Source: Adineta ricciae (taxonomy: Eukaryota; Rotifera; Eurotatoria; Adinetida; Adinetidae). From it: a stretch of DNA of 64,000 nucleotides. A program made the position numbers and the translations under genes. Numbering within the stretch: position 1 is the first letter of the stretch; each line of letters begins with the position of its first letter. This document shows, piece by piece, positions 7,331-23,423 of the stretch. The stretch spans positions 186,001 to 250,000 of the forward strand of contig CAJNOJ010000109.1 of the NCBI GenBank assembly GCA_905250025.1, in the 5' to 3' direction. The notes under the pieces are model-generated. The model ran no database searches and was not told the DNA's origin. It was given only the letters and a program-made list of their open reading frames with translations.

Positions 7331-9088
7331 TTATTGGAATAGACGTTCAGCATGATTCAGCCAAATATGCAAAGAATAATAAGATTGCCAATAGGTGAAA
7401 TCTCTCTTTCTATTCTTCAGTTCTTCAATGAATTCTGTCCAAGGTAATGCTTGGTCAGATGAAGCAAGTAAGGTTAAACTCCATAAATGTTCATGATGAT
7501 CAAGAATCATTTTCATACTATCAATATCTCTTATCGTTATTTCGAGATATTTTATGTGATGTGGAATAATATTGTAGAGCTCTTTGATGAGCATCGAACC
7601 ATCCGAAGAAGATGAATAAGGATGAATGGCTAATGTACTAAGATTAGCTGACAATGCCATCAATGTACTGATACTATCGATGGTACCGTCGATCAAAGCT
7701 GGATTAAGATCAGGATTAAAAGTGAAATTTTCCATACGCGAGAGATCGACGATATTCGATAAATGCTGAACATAATTTATTGACCAATCTTGATCTACAT
7801 CGATAGTTAATTTCGTAACATTACGAAAAACGTAATCACTTGACAGATCGTCCTACGATTAAAAACATTCAAGTTCATATAAAGATTAGTAAACACATAC
7901 ATTTTCTGTAGCTGTACTAGTTATCAATTTTGTCAAGGTCATGTTCAAATTTCGCACATCATTTGTCATGATACTGCCGTCGTGAATTAAATTCGAATTC
8001 GTTGAATAAGAAATTTTTTGCATTTCAGATTCATATGTGAAGTCGGGATTACACAATGGAATTGTATAAAGCATAACTTGATTGAGATAATCTATATAAT
8101 CGCAGGTAATGAACCATTGTTTTTCTTGTAGCCAAAATGATGTTCGAAATCGAGAGACTAATGATTGAACATCTCGCGATGTGTAAGAAATATAGTACAT
8201 ATTCGTAAAGTAGAATTGAAATTGTACTAAATGAGTTAAATTCGATCGAATGAACTTTTCCCAAAACGATCCATCTGCAACAGCCTCAAACGCATCGGGC
8301 AATCCGAGGATTTTCAAATAAGTCAAACAAGGTGTGAGAATTAGAATCGATACCAATCCGTTGATCGACATTCGACTGTCAGTCAACGTCAATGATGTTA
8401 ATAGCTCGTAAAACGTCGGTACAATAGTCGCTTCAACTTCGTGCATTGAACAATGATTAAATGTCAATCGTTGCAATTCAGGAGTTTGTCCAAGTATAGT
8501 ACAATATTGTCTGTGTGTTATGTACATTAATGTGAGATGTTTTAGGGTATATTGGCGTGGCCATACCATTTTCGTAATAGCGTAGGATGCAGTTTTTAAT
8601 TCAAGCCTATGAAGATTCAATTGGGCCAAGGTGATTGAAAGAAGATCTAAGGTTTCCACAGAAGGACAATGACATTCCCGCCAAATGATACGTAATGATG
8701 TTAGCGTTGATGTTAGACTCGAGCGTAGAACTGTGTATAGATCTTTGTCGTCAATATCAATGAAATGCAAAGAAAATAATCGAGTAAATTGATTAATATT
8801 AAATAACGATAGAAATAGTTTGATTTGACCAGGTGTTCTGTTGTCATCAGACAGCGTTAAAGAAAGAATAGTTTCCGGTTGAATAATCCGACAAATACGA
8901 TGAAAGTATAATTTAGAAATCGAACAAAAATCTATTCGATATTGGCTGTAAGCCTTGACTACGGCTTGAAAATATGTACATACATCATACAGTGACAGGA
9001 ATATTGTCGATGTATCGACATAATCGAGTATATGGTGAAGAATTTCTACTGGTAAGTTCAGTAAAGATAAATTGTACGTTGTGGTCAT
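7331..9088 (-). CDS. F-box protein with leucine-rich C-terminal region
   Basis: Two exons (9088-7901 and 7852-7331) join at GAAAAT|GTATGTG...CGTAG|GACGATCTG to about 569 aa. The N-terminus has a typical F-box (residues about 9-45: NLPVEILHHILDYVDTSTIF), the docking site for Skp1 in SCF ubiquitin ligases. The rest is a long run of leucine-rich segments (LTLSDDNRTPGQIKLFLSLF, LTLMYITHRQY, LTSLTLTDSRMS), presumably the substrate-binding part. It ends with FTYWQSYYSLHIWLNH. Large F-box/LRR-like families are common in bdelloids. Substrates cannot be told from sequence. The frame is open throughout, so the gene appears intact. It marks the left edge of the accessory island. Confidence 0.85.
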
Positions 9089-10107
9089 TAAAATATAATG
9101 TTTCTATCTTTATTAGAGGAATATGAAATGGCAGAGATAGTAAATAGGCGTATGACTCATTATTGTGTTCGTAATTCTATCATGTGCTTGCTGCTAAAAT
9201 GTCTTTCCCCATCGTAAACACAAATGCTTGACGGAGGAAAAGGAAGAACAAGCATATGTATTTTCCAGCTATATGTATCACAAACAGTGTCATTTGTTTT
9301 GTTTTCGAAAATCATATTGTTGACTTTTTTCAATAGCCAATGAAAACTGTGTAAAAGCGTGCTTGCTGAAGTTAATTCATCGCTTAGTAAACAGTGATGA
9401 TGCTTTAACCAAAACAATCGAAGAGATGAAGACGAAAATATATGCAAATTAGAAATAAAAATAGTTGAAATTGAAGGAAATTCATTCACTGAATTCAAGT
9501 GTCTTTCATCAGCATAAAAATGACTCTTAATTTCTTTGGATGTCTCTATTAGTTTTTCTGCGTCGAAAAATGTTTTCTTATTAATTGACAGAAGATTGAT
9601 TAAAGATCAATGAAATATTTTTCTTCGCTGGAGAAATATTATCCTAATGAAAAAAAGACGTTTGTTTTCATCAAAAACTGACTTTTAAATAGTAAGTGTA
9701 TAAGTACACAACTGGAGCGGATTTATTAAACACGTGTCTAACTGGTATGAATGGCAATAGAACCAAAAAGAAGATATTATCGGTATCAGCGAGAGTTCCC
9801 TATCATGAACACCGAGTGTTATGAGCAAAAATGGTATCATTGAGATACTCCTCATGATTTGCCGTGTATAATGAGAACGATCGGTATGGTATGAATATTA
9901 AGATGGCCAGGTTTTTGCTAATAAAATATGCATCAGTGTGACATACACTAATAAAAAAGATCCGTGATTTATTTCGTTATTTTCTACGAGAGGACATTCA
10001 AAATATGAGTTTTCTAACCTTGGCTAAAGAAAATTAAAGAACCAAAATCGTTGATACCGATACAGTTGATTCATGTTCTTGAATAGATTGTGAATAAAAA
10101 TAAATGA
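9089..10107. other. Intergenic, with one unrecognised 112-codon minus-strand frame
   Basis: The only notable open frame is 9160-9498 (-), 112 codons. It begins MNSVNEFPSISTIF and has no recognisable domain. It could be a remnant of a lineage-specific gene or chance, because no flanking exons join convincingly. The rest (9500-10107) is AT-rich and non-coding. Confidence 0.35.
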
Positions 10108-12177: not shown

Positions 12178-13380
12178 TCATTTGTGAACATCGAATACAC
12201 GTTTTTCCAACTGGTAAACAGCATAAAATAAGCGTTGAGGATTGCTCGATCCATCTTTACCATATGACAGTGTCGCACGATGGCGAAAACCAACATTTTC
12301 AAGTACTGCTTGCCATTCTTCACCTGTTCGATAACGAATGCTTTTGGCATATTGAATAATATACCATTTTTGCTCCTCCCAATCAGCTGCCTTGTTTAGT
12401 TGATTTCTTTCCACATCATTTTTCGCTGAATTTGCAAATTCTCCCACTCCAGCAATCATCATGATAGCATGAACAAAATTCAGATACTTAGTTTCAGGTA
12501 AATAATCGGTTTTACAATCGTGCTCTCGAATGATCAGATAACCTCCGAGACGGAGAATTCGAGCTAATTCACTGGATGTTTGTTCAATCTTAGAGACATG
12601 GTGAAATGTAACGAATGAAGTAATAAGATCAATACAGTTGTCTTCTAAATTTCATAGAATAGAACTACCTGAGAAATAAGACGAGAGAAAAATGCTGAAT
12701 ACGAACGAAGCTGAATATTTGCTTGATTTTCATTCAGTTTGATAAATTTAATATCTGAATGGTCACATTCGTAAACATCAGCACCGAAAATGGAATCGTT
12801 AGATAAACCTAGATAACGTCCAACGGCAGCTGTTATACTACCGTCACCACAACCAAAATCAAAATAGGATCTAATAGATTCCTTATCTATAATCTGATTT
12901 ATATTTGATGGTTCTACGATAAATTTACTGTTGGACCATAAAGATTTACTGCTGAATTCAAATATACATTTCAGATCATCAACTCGTTGATGGATTCGAG
13001 ACTTATCTTCCCATTTACTGATGGACACGCTAGTTGCTATAAATAATTGTAACGTTAATAGATCTGAGTTAGCTTTTACATTCTATACCGTGTCGTTCTT
13101 TTGTTTTTTCAATTAATTCGTGTAAAAAGTCTAATTCGTCGAGCTTTGTCATTTCTTTGCTTAGCCGATTGTACAGTTCTGTCACGTAGTGTCTTTGTTC
13201 ATAAATTCTACCTAGGTATTTCAAAAGAGCTATCCGATATTGAACATTGTGCCATAACGAATGTTCAGGACACCGTGAGCACATCCATTCACTAAATCTA
13301 TCTATTCGTCGAGCACTGTTGGGTGCTTGTGAACGAACAGGTTGTGTTGAATTTCGAGATTTGTTACTAAGCGCACCATT
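12178..13380 (-). CDS. SAM-dependent methyltransferase, paralogue B (5' end unresolved)
   Basis: Paralogue of the gene immediately downstream. The exon at about 13380-13077 carries RRIDRFSEWMCSRCPEHSLW, matching the paralogue's block. The next exon (13033 to about 12716) has an intact motif I, YFDFGCGDGSITAAVGRYLG, followed by SIFGADVYECDHSD. The last exon (from 12646) has CIDLITSFVTFHHVSK, LRLGGYLIIREHDC, RYRTGEEWQAVLENVGFRHR and SSNPQRLFYAVYQ, and stops at 12178. The SAM-binding glycines and acidic residue are present, so this copy could be active. Substrate and methyl acceptor are unknown. Exons 5' of 13380 are uncertain; candidates extend to 14481. Both copies share strand and exon plan, which fits tandem duplication. 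Confidence 0.75.
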
Positions 13381-13609
13381 CTATGAAGAAAACGGCCTCT
13401 TTTTTCCTTCCCTATCATCAAGAAAATATCTACTAGTGCGTTCCTGAAAAGGTGGTTTCCAGCTACAACAGATCCTCGTCCGTTTTCTTCGCCATTCTTG
13501 AGAACTTGCTGATGCCTTAGATTTTGACCTTTGGTTTTGTCTAAAAATTCAAATGTGCACAAGCATTGTTCAACGTCATTTGAATGGTTCTTATCAGAAA
13601 TATACTAAC

Positions 13610-14481
13610 TTTCTATTGTCGAACATTTACTTCTTCTGTTCGACTGATGTTCCATAAATTTCTTTGTTCGCTGAGTTCCTTGAGTGTCATCTACAATTCA
13701 GTACAGTCTAAACTATGAGTACGGAAAAAGTATGTATGTATTGAAATAAGACGAATACACTTTAACCATTGTGTATTTCAACATCTTAGAAAGTTTCCTC
13801 CAAGGTGTTTATGAGCTAATATATACGTACAATGTTGATTTGAACTTTGTGCAGTTGATAGAGGATCTTCTATAATCTAGAAAACGAACAGTTTCTCAGA
13901 AAAGACAAACAACGCGATGAGACTTTACATAGTCATCAAGTCCATGTGTCAATACAGTCTTGGTTGTGGATGGCTAATATTATAAAGAAATGAAGATGCA
14001 AATCGTCTGAAGATATTTAGTAGAGTTCGATATACTTCTAATGATATACCACCAAGAGACTGAGCCAACGTTTCGAGTTCGTAATCATCCATAGCATGAT
14101 TGTCAATAGGAGAAATCAATTTCGTTGTCTGATCGTTATGGGAATGAAAATTGGACAAATCTTGAATAACACTCTCAGAGGATATCGCATGTTCAGTCTG
14201 TCTACAGAATATTTTGTGTTAGGAATCAATATGTGGGATTAAAATCATGAAGTACTGTTGAATATCACTGTTCTCGGAAGGATCAATGGAAGATATGATT
14301 GGGTTCGTCTGTAGGAAGAAAGAAGATGAAACTGAAAGTGTCTTTGTTGATATTACCTTTGACAGATCTGTCGACCACTGCAACACAGGAGGAAACACAA
14401 GAAAATAGGCAGTTTTACTTAATTAATACACTTACAGTGCATAGTGCAGATGTTGACTCATTTGGAATATCAATCTTGTTC
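13610..14481 (-). CDS. Candidate small multi-exon gene, or 5' exons of methyltransferase B
   Basis: Splice-compatible pieces: ATG at 14481 (MNKIDIPNESTSALCT|), then TNPIISSIDPSENSDIQ, then an exon from about 14205 with DDYELETLAQSLGGISLEVY that stays open to 13949. Further pieces are IIEDPLSTAQSSNQH (13878-13833) and YDTQGTQRTKKFMEHQ (13690-13610). The first three join in phase. Whether they end as a protein of about 130 aa or continue into the methyltransferase gene cannot be decided by eye. No domain was recognised. The sequence is acidic and polar, so disorder is likely. There is no independent support beyond splice signals and open frames. Confidence 0.35.
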
Positions 14482-15546
14482 ATGTCTAAATCATAGTAAA
14501 TACTTACATATGTGTGATGTATTCAAATAAAAAAATTTATCAAATAAATTATTAAAATGGTCTATTTTTTCCCAAGATAATTTAATTCTGCAGTCCTTCT
14601 ACATACCTTTGTAACTTACGAAAAGACGAGACAAAGCATGTAAAAGATGTAATAGATAAAACACTATCATCTATTAAGACTTTTTTCTTATCATCAACAA
14701 CACGAGATCATAGGAATGCCGTAAACAAGCGAAACTCATGAAAAACCGCGTTCAGACTTTGATAAAACATGTCGATTCAACACTTCTCAGTCACGAAAAC
14801 ATCGTTTTAACGAATCTCGAACGTGTTTGTACGCACGAGTATTACAATCTGCTCAAGTTTTCTTTATATTAATGTGTTATTTCGTAAAATGTACCGAGCT
14901 TTTATTCATGAAAATGTACGCTATCCCCAAATTTGTTTTCTTTAAAATCTCCATGTTTTTATGCATTTCTGTCTGGTGCTGTTTGTCTACCTGAGAGTAT
15001 TACTAATGGAAAATTTTGAATTGAAATTGTAAAAAAGATTAACAAAGGAGAGAAGTGAATCATTCGAACAGAAATCGAAAGTAACTCGATGTCTCTTTAT
15101 GTTGATGTTGAAACAAAAGTTTTCACTGATCAGATGACTGTGTAAACAATATGAGTTCGAAACCTCTTGCCAAACCATCATATTACGATATACAATTTCA
15201 TCAGTTTTTTCTTTTGTAACGTTCAAGAATTTTTTGTGTATTTGTTCAAATGAAGATTCAGAAGATCATGAAAATTGCTGACAGTTGTATATGCTCTCAT
15301 AAATCTTCAACATCTTTCTGAGAGAATGAGAATGAGGTTATATGTCACTATTCAAATACAACTACATCGTATAATAAACAATTTTTGAACAAAGGTATTG
15401 ATTTTCCATAAACGTTCGAACCGTTTTCGATACGGTTCTGTTCGATTACATGTACCATCATCTTCAGCAAAACCATTCTTGATTATGCGTCGAGTGTTTC
15501 CCACCGTATATGTATATAGAAGATCCGTATCGTCTCGATAAAACAT
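14482..15546. other. Intergenic, AT-rich
   Basis: Only short, compositionally biased frames occur on both strands (for example 14987-15226 -). They show no domain and no splice partners. Nothing is supported here. Confidence 0.5.
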
Positions 15547-17501
15547 TTGAGATTTTTCATACTTCGAGCCAAATATAGTTTAGCTTTGAAGATGAAAACA
15601 TTGAGTGAGAAAAAGCAGTTTCAAGAAGCGATTGATTTTTTCAACAAACATGATGATCGAAAAGATGGTCGAAACATTTCGGATGCAGCTATTAATCAGG
15701 CATTGAAATCCGTCACTAATATCAAAGATTTAACACGCGGTTTCGATATTGATCGACGATACTCGTCCCGAATTGAGAAAGAAGCTTTCACGTGAGCTTC
15801 GATTATTCATTTCCACAGTAAATAATAACAAATTCTAATAAAGTCTCTGCATGTATGTGACACTTAGTGAAATCCAGAAATGTTTGATAAGACAAAAGAA
15901 AAGACAACTGACATCTACGGGCCAATGATGAAAGATAAAATCATCATTTAGATAGTCGAAATGAAATTTATTTGAGTATGCACATAGGTTTTATAAAACA
16001 TAATATGTTAAATGAAGTAGTCAATATTTTCTTTAAGATTCTCCCATCCAGATGAAGCAAACACTGTTTTATTATTCAATACTTGTGCTCGAATAGCAAT
16101 AAAAGACTCATTAGCATTAGTTTAAAAAGTTTTCTCAAATCTCCCGAAGCATCATCATAATAGTTTGAATATAATGATAAATGCTTTCAATGTCTACATA
16201 AAATGTGATGATTTACCCAATGCTGAACAAATTTTCTTTCCAAAATCAATAGGATCTACAAAGAGAACAATGGCATCGAAATCAACTCAGTTATTTATCT
16301 TCTATTAATCAATGCATGTAGTCAAATTGGAATACTTTCGGTATCGGAACCAATCTACGATGAGATTCCCGTTGAGCATCTTAATAATGATCTTTTCATT
16401 CGAAATGCATTAATTGACATGTGGGTGGGAGAATATTTCATGCATAGTGAGATAAAATGTATTGTTTGCATTTTGAAATAGGACCAATCAGTATGTTTAA
16501 CAAAAGCTGAAGAGATTTTTTAATCGTTAAATCAACCAGATCCAGTTGGATATGCATCAATGAGTAAATAAAGAGAATACTTCGAATTAATTTGACTTTA
16601 TTTGTAAACTAGTTAATGCGTATGGTTTAAATGGCAAGCGTCGCCATGAGGTCGAAATTATTATTTGAAGGAACATACGTTAGTGTTTTGAATGCATGTT
16701 CACATTTCGGACTTGTGAGCGAAGCTTGTGAAATCTTTTTCAAAATTGAGGATAAAACGGAGGTGTATACAACCATAGGCAGCTGAAATCATGTATTCTT
16801 TTATATTTGTATCGGATGAGTTTCATTTGAATTTAGGTTGATTGTTTCGGTTGTTCCTTTCGTTTTCAAGAAGCTGAAGATTTGATAAACGATTATGAAT
16901 CTCGTCATTCTCCGTTGCCTTTATTATCTGCAACCGGAAATGACAAAAATCTTTCAACGTATTCAACAGTATTTTCCTGATTAACAGAATAGAATAGTAT
17001 CGGCGACAGTTTTGTTGAGCAATATTTATGCATCAATTGGTGATGTGGAAAAGTCAGCCGATATTAAAACCAATTTGAGTCTTGCTGGTTTGAACAAGAA
17101 AAGCGGTGTGGCCTGGACACAAACCAACGGACAAATTCATGTAAGCGATCTTATGCAAAAAAGGAATTTCTCTTTTTAGGACTGTAGACATTTCGTGCAC
17201 ATGATCGATCGCATCCACGTTTATCGGAAATTCCGGAAGAAATTGAGAAAATATCGAAAGAGAGCGTGGACATCAACCTGATGCATGTTTGTTGTAAATC
17301 CAAATACTAAACGAATTCAAATAGTCAAAAACCTTCGTGTGCGTGGAGAATGCCGTAAGTAATTATCTCAAATATCTTTCAGTATTCTTATCTTGTCTTT
17401 CGATAGATCAATCAACCAAATTGATAGCTGCTGTTCATGATGCGAACAGAATTCATCATTTTTATACGAACGGTGAATGTTCTTGCAATGATCATTTGTA
17501 A
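15547..17501 (+). pseudogene. Decayed DYW-type pentatricopeptide-repeat (PPR) gene
   Basis: An intact-looking N-terminus (15547-15795: TLSEKKQFQEAIDFFNKHDD, AINQALKSVTNIKDLTRGFD) runs into a stop. Recognisable PPR pieces then continue in shifting frames. They include DKTKEKTTDIYGPMMK (about 15900), GFIKHNMLNEVVNIFFKI (about 16000), LFIRNALIDMW (about 16400), YVSVLNACSHFGLVSEACEIF (about 16680) and a typical E-domain GDVEKSADIKTN...SGVAWTQTNGQIH (about 17050-17140). The end is a DYW-like tail: KNLRVRGECR (about 17330) and HDANRIHHFYTNGECSCNDHL (17440-17501). DYW proteins are RNA-editing cytidine deaminases of plant organelles, also reported from bdelloid rotifers. Here the HxE deaminase region is missing and the CxDCH-type motif is changed. 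With several stops and frameshifts this is almost certainly a dead gene. Confidence 0.8.
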
Positions 17502-18148
17502 AGAATAAACATCGAAATGATATTTTGCATAGCTTTTCTTTTTCACAACATACATTCGTTGACTTTTGATGAGCAGAGAACTTAATTCACAGAATCGATC
17601 GGAAATACTCGATCGACATTCTAATTTCCACACATCGAACTATTTCGCATAGCAAAATATGTTCGATTGTTGTGATATCAATGTCGTCTATGGTTTAGTA
17701 CAAAACCGAACTTTCAATTTGCATTTGATTCAATCAAAATATCTTTTTAATATTCGCATTGTCTTAAAAACGAATCATTTATTCCAAGGTGTTGACGTTC
17801 GTGTAATGATCAAAATAAAATCCATGTGGTTCGTCAGCTATAAATGTATTTCATAAGTACACTTTTATCAACCTAACGCCCTCTACATGTATTTACTGCG
17901 ATCGGTTCGAAATAACAAACCATTCCTGTCTTAATTATAAATAAATCACGAAATAGGAAAAATAAAGGAAGAGAAGTCAAATACTTTATCAATATTAAAC
18001 TATTCATCCATGATTTTTTCGTACGAAAGCCTGGAAAATAGATCGATGAACAAAAAACTTTGACAATAAGTACAAAGTCATAAATCATTCGAAAACACAA
18101 CCTTGTTCTTTTAAGTAATTTCAACTGAAAATCGAATATTTCTAGACC
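17502..18148. other. Intergenic region upstream of the helicase gene
   Basis: No gene is supported. Frames on both strands are short and lack domains. Its right end carries tttctagACC just before the helicase ATG, which suggests a splice acceptor in the leader. Confidence 0.5.
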
Positions 18149-20541
18149 ATGCAGATCTCGTCGCAAAAACCAACAGATAATTCGACGAGTAGATTCTGGA
18201 AACCAGGTAGTGCTCGTCCACCTCGACAACAATCCTCGTCGATTGTTGATCGACAAGATTCCACCTCGGAGAATGTCGATCTCTACCAACATTCCTCAAT
18301 GTCAATTTCTCAACACCGTCGAAACCTTCCAATTGCGAATTATCGTACACATATCTTGTATTTACTGGAAAAATATCGAACAATCATTATCATTGGGCAA
18401 ACTGGTAACATCGTTGAACTTGTCTTTAACGAAATTTTATAAAAATTCATTTAGGTAGTGGCAAATCAACTCAAATTCCTCAATATCTTCTCGAAGGTGG
18501 TTGGACTCGAAATGGGAAATTAATCTGTATGACTGAACCTCGTCGGATTGCAACTGTGCAATTAGCTCAACGTATTGCCGATGAAAAGGATGTTATCTTA
18601 GGGAAAGAAGTTGGTTATCGTATTCGTTTTGAAGATGTTTTTACAAGTGGATTAACACAAGTTATTGTTGTGACGGAAGGTCTTCTTTTACGTGAGATCA
18701 TGTATGATCCACTGTTAACACGATATAATGTTGTGATTATCGACGAAGCACATGAGAGATCGATTCAGACTGATCTTTTGTTAGGTTTGTTGAAGAAAAT
18801 CCAACGACGCCGGCGTGATTTACGATTGATCGTCACATCTGCAACGATTGATAGCGAACGATTACGTGCGTTTTTCGAACATCAAACAACTCCGATTGTC
18901 CGAGGCGAAAATCAATCGACAGAAGAAGAAGAAGAAAAGCTTGAAGAATGCTTTATTATGAGTGTTGAAGGTCGTTCGTATCCAGTGGAAATCTTTCATA
19001 CATCCGAATCTGTACCTGATTATCGCAAAGCGTGTGCAGAAGCTTGTATTGAAATACATGAAAAAGAGAAATACAACGAACAGGGTGATGTTCTTTGCTT
19101 TGTATCTGGACAAGAAGATATCGGACATATAACTCGTGAATTAAACGAATATGCAAGACGGTTGAGTGATGAACAACAACATTTGAAACGCAAAGATGAA
19201 CGGAAGAAGTTGATTATCTTACCGTTATACGCGAGTTTGAAATTTATTGATCAAATGAAAGTTTTCGAGAAAACGCCACCTAACACGCGGAAGATTATTG
19301 TGGCGACAAACATCGCAGAAACGAGTATTACAATTCCAGGTAAGACAGTCAAAAATCAAATTTTCTCCAAATGAAGAAGTTTTTGTTTAGGAATTGTGTA
19401 TGTTATCGATTGTGGTTATGTTCGATTGAAATTATTCAATCCGGAGTTCGGCTTTGAAGTTCTAACAACATTACCGGTAACACGTTCATCGGCGTTACAA
19501 CGTGCTGGTCGAGCTGGTCGTGTTCGTTCGGGAAAAGCTTATCGTCTCTATCCTGCATCCGAATACGAAAAAATGAAAGAATTTCAACTCCCCGAAATGC
19601 AACGATGTGACTTAGCACTCGCTGTTCTTCAAATCAAAGCATTAGGCATTCATAACGTCGTTCGATTTGACTTTCCATCGCCACCACCTTCGAAAAATCT
19701 TCTCCAAGCGATCGAATGTCTCTACGCATTACGCGCTATTGACGAACAATCGCGTTTAACGGCAGATTTAGGAATGAAAATGGCGGAATTACCATTGCAT
19801 CCGACACATGCGCGTGCTTTATTGATTTCGGCTGAATATGGTTGTACACAAGAAATGTTGAAAATTATCGCATCGCTTCAAGTGAAACACGTATTCATCA
19901 ATCCTCCGAACGAAAAAATGCGTGCAGCTAAATTACACGCGAAATTCGCTTGTCAAGAAGGCGATCTGATTACAGTGTTAAATGTTATCAAAGCATTTGA
20001 ACAACAAATGGCACCGCAACAATTCTGTGATAAGTAAGTCCTATTCTAAGTATGTCAAACATATCCTCTCATTCTCTTTGCTTTCAGACATATGCTAAAT
20101 CTCAAATCGCTAAAACGTATTCTTGAAATCAAAGATTCTTTAGAAAAATCTCTTCGCCGTTTAATATCAAAACCAAGCACAATTTCTTCTTCAACGGGTG
20201 ACGACGTGATACCAGTACTTAAATGTCTAACCGACGCATTTTTCATGAATGCTGCACGCTTAGCAATGGATGGTTATACCTACCGAACATTTCGTGGTTC
20301 ATCTCAGGAACTCTATATGCATCCATCATGTATTTTATCTCCAATTTTATCAGCACAAGAAACTACGCAAAGTCAATTGCCTAAAATAATCTTGTTTAAT
20401 GAATTAATTCAATCATCGAAGATGTTCATGTCGGATATCACTGTTATTGAACAAAATTGGTTGTATGAAATCGCGGGACATTACTATGAGCAGTTATCGA
20501 CACGACAATGGATGTTGAAAGAATCGTATGAATTTGAATAA
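18149..20541 (+). CDS. DHX35: DEAH-box RNA helicase DHX35
   Basis: Four exons (18149-18404, 18455-19339, 19391-20033, 20088-20541) join in frame to about 745 aa; the human protein is about 700 aa. DHX35 is a nuclear ATP-dependent RNA helicase associated with spliceosomes. All motifs are visible: Walker A GQTGSGKST (split by intron 1), Ia TEPRRIA, II IIDEAHERS, III TSATID, FVSGQEDI, IATNIAETSIT-type motif V (VATNIAETSITIPG) and VI QRAGRAGRVRSGK. The ratchet/winged-helix and OB-fold regions follow (PEMQRCDLALAVLQIKALG, LAMDGYTYRTFRGSSQELYMHPS). The N-terminus FWKPGSARPP and HRRNLPIANYRTHILYLLE match DHX35 rather than DHX8, 15 or 38. A short acidic insert (EEEEEKLEE) follows motif III. The gene appears intact. 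Its stop is only 87 bp from the next gene's start. Confidence 0.95.
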
Positions 20542-20628
20542 AGGAATCAACAATGTTTTTGTTGTTGGAGTCTAGTCAATAGATCGAAACGATATTAATC
20601 GGTGTTTTTTTTTGTTTATATATTTCAG

Positions 20629-23423
20629 ATGGAAAATAATGTGCTAAAGATAAAATTGATTTCGTTTAAAAATACGACGAAATCAAGTTCAAGTCATGTT
20701 CTTTGTTATGTGAAAAAGCTGACAAACTTACCATCGAGTGACGGTAATGTTTGATTTAGAATGAAGTTTTTTTCCTTGAAAGACTGAGATTCATTTTGTT
20801 TAGATTCTTCGGTAATTCTTGCACAAACCGACTCATCTACAGCACTTGTTCGTTCGATTGGTGACACATTTGATTGGACAAATTCGGATGGAAATTATTG
20901 TCAGTTAATATTCTTAACATCGAAATCGAAATCGAAAGTTATTGCTGATGTCATTTTATGGTACGATCATTTATTAAAACTTCTCGACGATCGTCGATAT
21001 AAAGAATCTGAAACAGATTTACTCTGCAGCGTAAGTGATAGGTATTCAAATAACGAAGAAAAATCCATTGGAGAGAATTGATTTAGACAACAATTCGAAA
21101 AGATTATCAGTTTGAATTTAGTGTTCGATTACTTGATGATCAGATGCCTGTCTTGTCCGAAAGTAAGTTTACTTATTCTTTTGCTTCTAATTTGATATTA
21201 TTCAACGGAATAACTTTCAACATATTTCCTGAATAGCGCCATCGACAATATCGAAAGTGACATTGAATAGTAAACTTTCTGGCCGACAGACTGTTCGTGG
21301 ACACATAATGAAAATCCAACAGTTCAATCATCCAGTCCATTGTGCTATTTGTCATGGTTTTATTTGGTACGTTCACGATGATATTTAAATTTATTTTTCC
21401 AACCAAAATTTTTCGTTCATAGGGGTTTACACCATCAAGGCTTCGAATGTTCACAATGCTCTCTCGTCACACACCGGAAGTGTCATCAACAAATACCATT
21501 CTGGTGTCGTAAATCTCTTTTTCCAGTAAGTCAATCATTTCGCTAAAGCATCATCATTAGTACATCGAAAAATCTACAAGGAACCTGCTACATCCAACGA
21601 AGGCTTTCGATTAAAATTTGATGTTTCTCATAAATTTAAACAACATGAGGCGCCGTTTGTTCGAGCGTTAGTCACTCGAAACCATGGGCATTGTAACCAT
21701 TGCGGCTCACCAATCTTTCGAAATGCTCTCAAGTGTACACGTACGATTCGCAAATCAAAAAATTGCATAATGCGTTGCCATGCTCTAACTCTAATAACGC
21801 CTGCCTATACTAAACAGATCTCGCTGTAGCTCATACCTTCTTTCCTCAATTCAATCTATACACTTTTTCATTTATTTTAGAATGTCATTTTATTATTCAT
21901 GAACATTGCAAATCAAATGTTCCTCTCATGTGTACACTCGCATATGATTCCATAGCTGAAGCCATACCTAACACTACCCCACCATCACATATAGGTGTGC
22001 GCTTTCATCCACCTAAAGCAACTATTAACCTACGTGAGCAATCGCGATCGTCCTCGTTCGATTTTTCATGGCTTGAATCATTATCGGAGTTGAATGTGAC
22101 GACAAATAAAGCTGTACCTTTACCGAAATTCAGTGATTTCGCATATGTTGGCCGTGTTGGCGATGGTGCATTTGCACAAGTTTATTGTGTTCAACATATT
22201 GCGTCAAAACAGCATATGGCCATCAAAGTTGCTGACGGATCAAATGAGCAAGCACGACAACAATTAGAAGTAGAACGACAAATTTTATTTCGATATAGTC
22301 AAGGAAATCCCTATATGATCAGAGCACACTGTACATTTCACCAAGGAGTTAGTTTAATTTACTCTGAGTTAGTTTTACCGAAATGGGCATTTAATTTGAT
22401 TTTTTAGACGAAACTGTTTCTTGTTATGGAACTTGTGCAAGGTGGATCGTTATATCATAAGATTCAAACTACACGTATGAATGAAGATGACATACGATTT
22501 TATCTAGCAGAACTCATCTGTGTTATACAATACTTACATTCTAAGAACATCGTCTACCGGTTTGTTTATTCATGTGATCAAAACAACAAATCCGTCGGAT
22601 CGTTTTTCTAGAGATTTGAAACTCGAGCATGCAGTTGTCTGTTCCGAAGGTCACATACGTCTCGTTGATTACGGACTTGGCCGATTACTGAAATCTCACA
22701 ATGAAGCTTGCCATACGTTCTGTGGTACATACAGTTACATGGCTCCCGAAGTACAATCTTTCCGTTCGAACTTCATAATTTTATTCATTCGTGTTAGGTT
22801 CGCTGTTTGGAAACCAGTTCATCGGAAGAAGGTTATAGTTATCCGGTTGATTTCTGGGCACTTGGTATTATGTTTGTGCAAATGTTATTTGGCGAACAAA
22901 TAGATTTTGCTTCTCAAATGTTTTCGAATGGTGATCAAAGTACCGAACAAAAAAATCTAGCTGAGTTATTGGAATTACCTCGTCATACCAGTCCGGAAGC
23001 GTGTTCGTGTATTCACGGTTTACTTGAAAATGATCCAAAGAAACGATTAGGTTCACCAGATTCACCACATGGTCCTATTCGTGATCATCCCTTTTTCAAA
23101 ATGGGTTATCGGATCGATTGGCAAGAAATTGAAGACGGAGTATTCAAACCATTAACAAAAAATCAATATGTAAGTGTAAGAGTCAACAATACACATTTCT
23201 ATTTGTTTTATTCTTATCTTTCGTGTAGATTGCACCTGTTTTATCTGACGTATCGATTCATCGACCACTTTCTACTCTCCTACTGGATAGAGGAAGTCAT
23301 GGACAAGCTGATTGGTTAGAAGCTGGACGATCTACATGTACATTAGCAGAAGATGAACAATTAAAATCATTTGATTTCATTAATCAATCTACATGGCTGG
23401 AATTGACTCAAGCAGATGCTTGA
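20629..23423 (+). CDS. Divergent protein kinase C-like protein (possible pseudokinase)
   Basis: Multi-exon gene whose ATG directly follows tatttcag. Layout: N-terminal C2-like region (20629-21165); C1A finger (about 21300-21525) with the complete H-x12-C-x2-C-x13-C-x2-C-x4-H-x2-C-x7-C pattern; degenerate second C1 (about 21640-21935); then an AGC kinase domain. The kinase keeps MAIKV (Lys), RDLKL (Asp), TFCGTYSYMAPE (PDK1-site Thr) and DFWALG. However, the Gly loop reads GDGAFAQVY, the catalytic-loop Asn is His (RDLKLEH), and DFG is DYG. The C-tail hydrophobic motif reads LKSFDFIN, with Asp at the usual Ser/Thr. Family: novel/epsilon-eta-like PKC, normally a diacylglycerol-activated membrane kinase. 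In C1B the first His is absent and only 10 residues separate the second and third Cys. Confidence 0.85.

Follow-up and report, generated by a model that had tools for sequence, protein, structure and literature searches.

Does the genome of a bdelloid rotifer hold the remains of a plant-type RNA-editing gene, and if so, is that gene truly dead and what kind of family did it belong to? The locus in question lies in a 64,000-nucleotide stretch of Adineta ricciae DNA (the window; G000:C109:186001-250000, from an assembly of 130.46 Mb in 1033 contigs), in which a sequence-only reading had described positions 15547 to 17501 as a dead PPR-DYW gene. When the region was compared with its relatives in the assembly, positions 15485-17501 of the forward strand were found to be a decayed DYW-type PPR gene. 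It is almost certainly a unitary-looking pseudogene that can no longer be translated into a DYW-type PPR protein.

The assignment was made by spliced, frameshift-aware alignment with the nearest kin protein (C201, residues 11-647), in which 282 of 536 aligned codons were identical and the score was 1117, as against 54-78 in three shuffles and 67 on the reverse strand. With a slightly shorter reference the copy scored 1088, compared with a maximum of 117 (median 76) among 40 stretches taken elsewhere in the window. Raw single frames were also compared with Pfam; three of six fragments matched weakly and three had no match. PPR (22.3 bits, 16631-16783) and DYW_deaminase (22.1 bits, 17325-17498) fell just below the gathering score, and E_motif (25.4 bits, 16985-17176) just missed its cut-off of 27.3. 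When the frames were joined into a read-through product, with X at the breaks, DYW_deaminase (35.7 bits; cut-off 24) and PPR (32.3 bits; cut-off 25) were recovered; E_motif (21.8 bits) and E+ (21.3 bits) each stayed under the cut-off, and this region aligns to the kin. The window also contains laminin domains (EGF_laminin, 140.9 bits; Laminin_N, 168.8 bits) and the ligand domain of a nuclear receptor (45.5 bits). Since laminin and nuclear-receptor domains share the window with the pseudogene, the host genome is that of an animal, and the earlier claim of a plant-type PPR-E-DYW remnant in an animal genome is borne out. Its limits needed one correction: the end at 17501 is right (the former stop codon is 17499-17501), whereas homology extends upstream of 15547 to about 15521 and the putative former ATG, judged from the sequence, is at 15485.

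On the forward strand, the former exon 1 (15485-15817) covers the N-terminal region and the first repeats, with a frameshift near 15530 and a stop at 15793. It is followed by an intron remnant of 50 nt (15818-15867; 81 nt by an alternative alignment) and by the former PPR tract (15868-16424), which the kin alignments show to carry several frameshifts, a stop at 16123, a gap of 23 residues near 16254 and a lost splice donor near 15935. Further intron remnants, placed by kin alignment, are found at 16425-16481 (57 nt), 16564-16612 (49 nt), 16763-16836 (74 nt) and 17141-17187 (47 nt). Between them lie a PPR repeat remnant (16613-16762; frameshift near 16645), to which the raw-frame PPR match belongs, and the remnant of an S repeat and E motif (16837-17140; frameshift near 16942, stop at 16982), where the raw E_motif match falls. 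The E+ motif and the first part of the DYW domain (17188-17354) contain a gap of 28 residues at 17286. A last intron remnant (17355-17406, 52 nt), situated between the CxxC motif and the C-terminus where the kin also have an intron, precedes the DYW C-terminus (17407-17501), which ends in ...NRIHHFYTNGECSCNDHL and yields the raw DYW_deaminase match.

The sequence-only reading had reported stops and frameshifts throughout. This stands for four in-frame stops (15793, 16123, 16521 and 16982) and for nine or ten frameshifts, a count that varies with the aligner and in which one frameshift may be an intron left unspliced by the loss of the donor near 15935. It does not stand for six of the interruptions, which are ordinary introns of 47-74 nt placed where the kin have introns; of the eight kin introns, six are recognisable in the window copy, a seventh has no GT donor (about 15935) and the eighth is absent. 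About 92 residues are missing, spread over ten gaps. The largest of these gaps, that of 28 residues, deletes the HSE box, as the same reading had seen for the HxE core, and CGDC of the kin has in addition become RGEC. The deaminase zinc site has thus been lost twice, and with neither an intact reading frame nor either half of that site left, the copy is unable to bind zinc or deaminate.

Could these lesions be apparent only? The six true introns lend something to the view that the gene is functional and heavily spliced, its stops and shifts being further introns, and a gene finder can indeed be forced to an open model. However, that model (score 29.6) depends on 12 introns, passes over conserved sequence and lacks the HSE box all the same; moreover, the stops and frameshifts lie inside conserved exons and the change to RGEC would persist. 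We regard a working spliced gene as highly improbable, and the death of the copy survives this check. No more credit is due to a live gene spoiled by assembly or sequencing errors. The frameshifts of the C201 and C211 kin, two in each and differently placed in the same domain, could be indel errors of that kind, but nearly half of the aligned residues of the window copy are unlike those of its nearest kin, large parts of it are deleted, the adjoining helicase frames (314 and 220 aa) are open, and the assembly contains no near-identical copy of the window gene.

Contamination with plant or protist DNA would agree with PMC4202320, in which the family is termed plant-type and is patchy outside plants. 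Yet the pseudogene is flanked by genes on a contig that also carries the laminin and nuclear-receptor domains, and its family is spread over 48 contigs with short introns in common, which leaves contamination with next to no probability, the smallest among the alternatives.

Where does the pseudogene belong among its kin? At the DNA level it is most similar to C201 (129.2-131.1 kb) and C211 (149.1-151.3 kb), with 63-79% identity in pieces. Between these two, 0.5% of first, 1.2% of second and 3.1% of third codon positions differ, and each contig has three DYW loci in identical order; from this low divergence and shared order they are probably alleles or close homologues. Both of these loci (L042, C211:149122-151434, and L044, C201:129250-131567) have their two frameshifts in the E+/DYW region, which may mean that both copies are in the course of decay or that there are indel errors in this part of the assembly. 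In a tree of 20 rows with two PDB segments as outgroup, the window copy was placed inside the animal family as sister to C201/C211 with a support of 91/95, which falls short of the 95/80 star. The dead copy is thus placed, probably, as sister to an allele pair that itself has frameshifts.

The end branch of the window copy is 0.58 in length, compared with about 0.25 on the sister side, which fits a later decay. Between the window copy and C201, dN was 0.33 and dS 1.75 (saturated), with a ratio of 0.19. Eight paralogue pairs in the genome gave dN/dS values of 0.12-0.37, indicating purifying selection, and because the ratio of the window copy resembles theirs, most of its divergence arose under constraint, as far as a saturated dS allows. 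The copy would accordingly be an old, dispersed paralogue that kept its function through most of the time since it separated and whose death, read from a saturated dS, was rather recent relative to its age. No second copy of the flank at 17600-21600 was found in the assembly. When the frames flanking the pseudogene were compared with the surroundings of 20 DYW loci, only an F-box-like family was held in common, so there is no sign of a homoeologous block. The F-box-like frame of the window (405 aa, 7889-9103, reverse strand) has relatives beside the DYW loci L036, L037 and L038.

How large is the family, and how much of it is alive? The Pfam DYW_deaminase profile gave at least 127 exon matches in the assembly, grouped into at least 81 further loci on the 48 contigs; these lower bounds include allelic copies and leave the window copy uncounted. 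No DYW_deaminase match was found in any of 14 control genomes, and scans of viral contigs (25 pattern stretches) and genome contigs (36) gave no DYW-domain relative. A neighbouring DYW locus within 16 kb was present for 42 of the 81, with, for example, five loci on C461 and four on C311. Loci about 3-18 kb apart make up clusters at C461:510-18130, C311:89151-111041 and C322:73828-108304.

Twenty loci were modelled, mostly the best-scoring ones, a choice that overstates the proportion of healthy genes. In the last 330 residues, 14 of the 20 models had neither stop nor frameshift against the best reference (C155b being only partly covered), five were broken (C529a, C211a, C201a, C288 and C237b), and C887 showed one frameshift against one reference and none against another. 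Longer cross-alignments revealed at least one frameshift or stop in seven of eight partner loci, a figure that may partly reflect the aligner and uncertain N-terminal models. The HxE box reads HSE in 17 models, HNE in two and HCE in one, and CxxC is kept in 19. The family is thus large and, among the 20 modelled loci, mostly keeps its catalytic core. Birth and death within one family, as the sequence-only reading had proposed, are well supported by the other loci, their clustering and the five broken models. A horizontal origin of the family is a proposal taken from the literature (PMC4202320).

Some members of the family are distinctive. L043 (C155:206327-206992) gave a model of 189 aa almost without PPR, consisting of an N-terminal part and E+/DYW with HCE and CIDC; its product may act as a deaminase on its own, in the manner of plant DYW1, or the gene may have been truncated. 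L045 (C288) and L047 (C237) are close copies, both broken, with HNE and with about two dozen residues missing before HxE. In the case of L001, the DYW domain matched the solved plant domains of OTP86 (7o4e, E-value 1e-34) and DYW1 (7w86, 5e-27), and an AlphaFold model of its DYW exon (8 rows) had a mean pLDDT of 58, too poor for use.

What might such proteins do in a rotifer? RNA binding by PLS-type repeats and deamination of cytidine are established for the plant and moss homologues. From their anatomy the living kin should bind RNA through PLS-type repeats and deaminate cytidine. Within the first 29 residues, six of seven kin had at most one acidic and at least three basic residues, compared with 428 of 4265 internal windows (about 10%); the seven N-termini were chosen for plausible model starts, the other 13 of the 20 models being left out. 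In this selected set, the N-termini point to mitochondria. Before its death the window gene would have encoded a plant-type organellar editing factor whose PPR tract recognised one RNA and whose DYW domain deaminated one cytidine in it, probably in the mitochondrion.

Mitochondrial genes were located at the end of the 478-kb contig C55 (C55:466000-477450; pieces L051-L053), and this block is perhaps a mis-join. Read with translation table 5, one strand encodes cox1, nad6, atp6, nad1, cob, nad4L, nad4, nad5, cox2 and cox3. An Rfam search of these three pieces and of window positions 13000-20000 gave nothing reaching the gathering score, and a tRNA scan of the window (bacterial code) gave none. 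Across the ten genes, with 2993 codons in all, the share of C is 6.6% at first, 11.2% at second and 1.3% at third codon positions; the extreme skew is seen at the last of these, where C occurs in 39 of 2993.

If many C were edited, codons correctable by C-to-U change should be common. At 1757 reference-conserved positions in seven genes (nad6, atp6 and nad4L were left out), mismatches correctable by C>T were not in excess: they affected 8 of 436 C (1.8%), below T>C (80/2432, 3.3%), G>A (37/905, 4.1%) and A>T (78/1498, 5.2%). A small number of positions drew attention nonetheless. With cox1 residues counted from the R of RWLFSTNH, codons CTT 374 and GCT 377, whose candidate positions are C55:467334 and C55:467344, yield HLHYA; the bovine sequence, three from bacteria and one from an archaeon read HFHYV there. 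At 112 universal columns of this gene, two of 11 mismatches are C-to-U-correctable. Both histidines in the HFH motif serve as haem ligands. For cob, codon TCT 273, with its candidate position at C55:471813, yields PEWYS, with PEWYF in four of five references; the column is not fully universal, as Sinorhizobium has Y, and at 139 universal columns of cob one of 49 mismatches is C-to-U-correctable (L356). Two other candidates were set aside. A 'PRSRYD' stretch in nad1, spotted by eye, has an AGA codon and is hence no case of C-to-U change, and cox1 A308 (GCA) is weak as a site, since it falls in a variable column and an A is found in Halobaculum too.

Mitochondrial editing at a few sites (cox1 L374 and A377; cob S273) is possible and unproven. 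A fuller proposal, which we hold tentatively and think rather less probable than its negation, is that the animal may edit its own mitochondrial transcripts by plant-type C-to-U change, with dozens of DYW-PPR factors for few sites. These would include cox1 L374 and A377, changed to F and V so that AHFHYV is restored, and cob S273, changed to F so that PEWYF is restored. The window gene would then be a dead factor, lost perhaps once T had become fixed at its site, in a mitochondrial DNA that is extremely poor in C. The PPR-code positions differ among paralogues (T, S or N with D, N, S, T and others), and when two repeats were read in 18 rows, no modelled protein convincingly fitted a candidate site.

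Taken singly, the locus is an ordinary pseudogene, a genuine one, of an already known family. Its setting is unusual: at least 81 further DYW-PPR loci of plant type, many of which have an intact deaminase core and are under purifying selection, in an animal, coexisting with a mitochondrial DNA almost free of C at silent sites. Either this animal edits organellar RNA in the plant fashion at the few sites named, or the family has another target. For specialists, the interest lies in a large living family together with three codons able to reveal mitochondrial RNA editing in an animal.

When compared with plant editing factors, the intact kin align with OTP86 (At3g63370) and DYW1 through the DYW domain, including HSE, CxxC and the C-terminal CxC. 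In contrast to the plant proteins, they have no strict PG box and mostly end in DYF, DHF, DFF or similar residues in place of DYW, and the window copy, unlike OTP86 and DYW1, is without a catalytic box. Among animals, the consulted passages of PMC4202320 name bdelloid rotifers alone as having DYW-PPR proteins, and the proteins reported there from Adineta ricciae and Philodina roseola likewise carry an E/E+/DYW C-terminus and are encoded in the nuclear genome of an animal. Compared by description, the window copy differs from them in being dead. The same passages remark on lineage-specific expansion for the DYW-PPR family generally; they describe neither the scale of 81 further loci, nor broken members, nor a mitochondrial test. 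The heteroloboseans are also a non-plant lineage with several such genes, and for Acrasis kona PMC4202320 gives 12 DYW-PPR ORFs and confirmation of two of six predicted sites. Editing has been demonstrated in Acrasis kona, against candidate sites in the present animal, whose DYW loci are several times more numerous than the ORFs given there.
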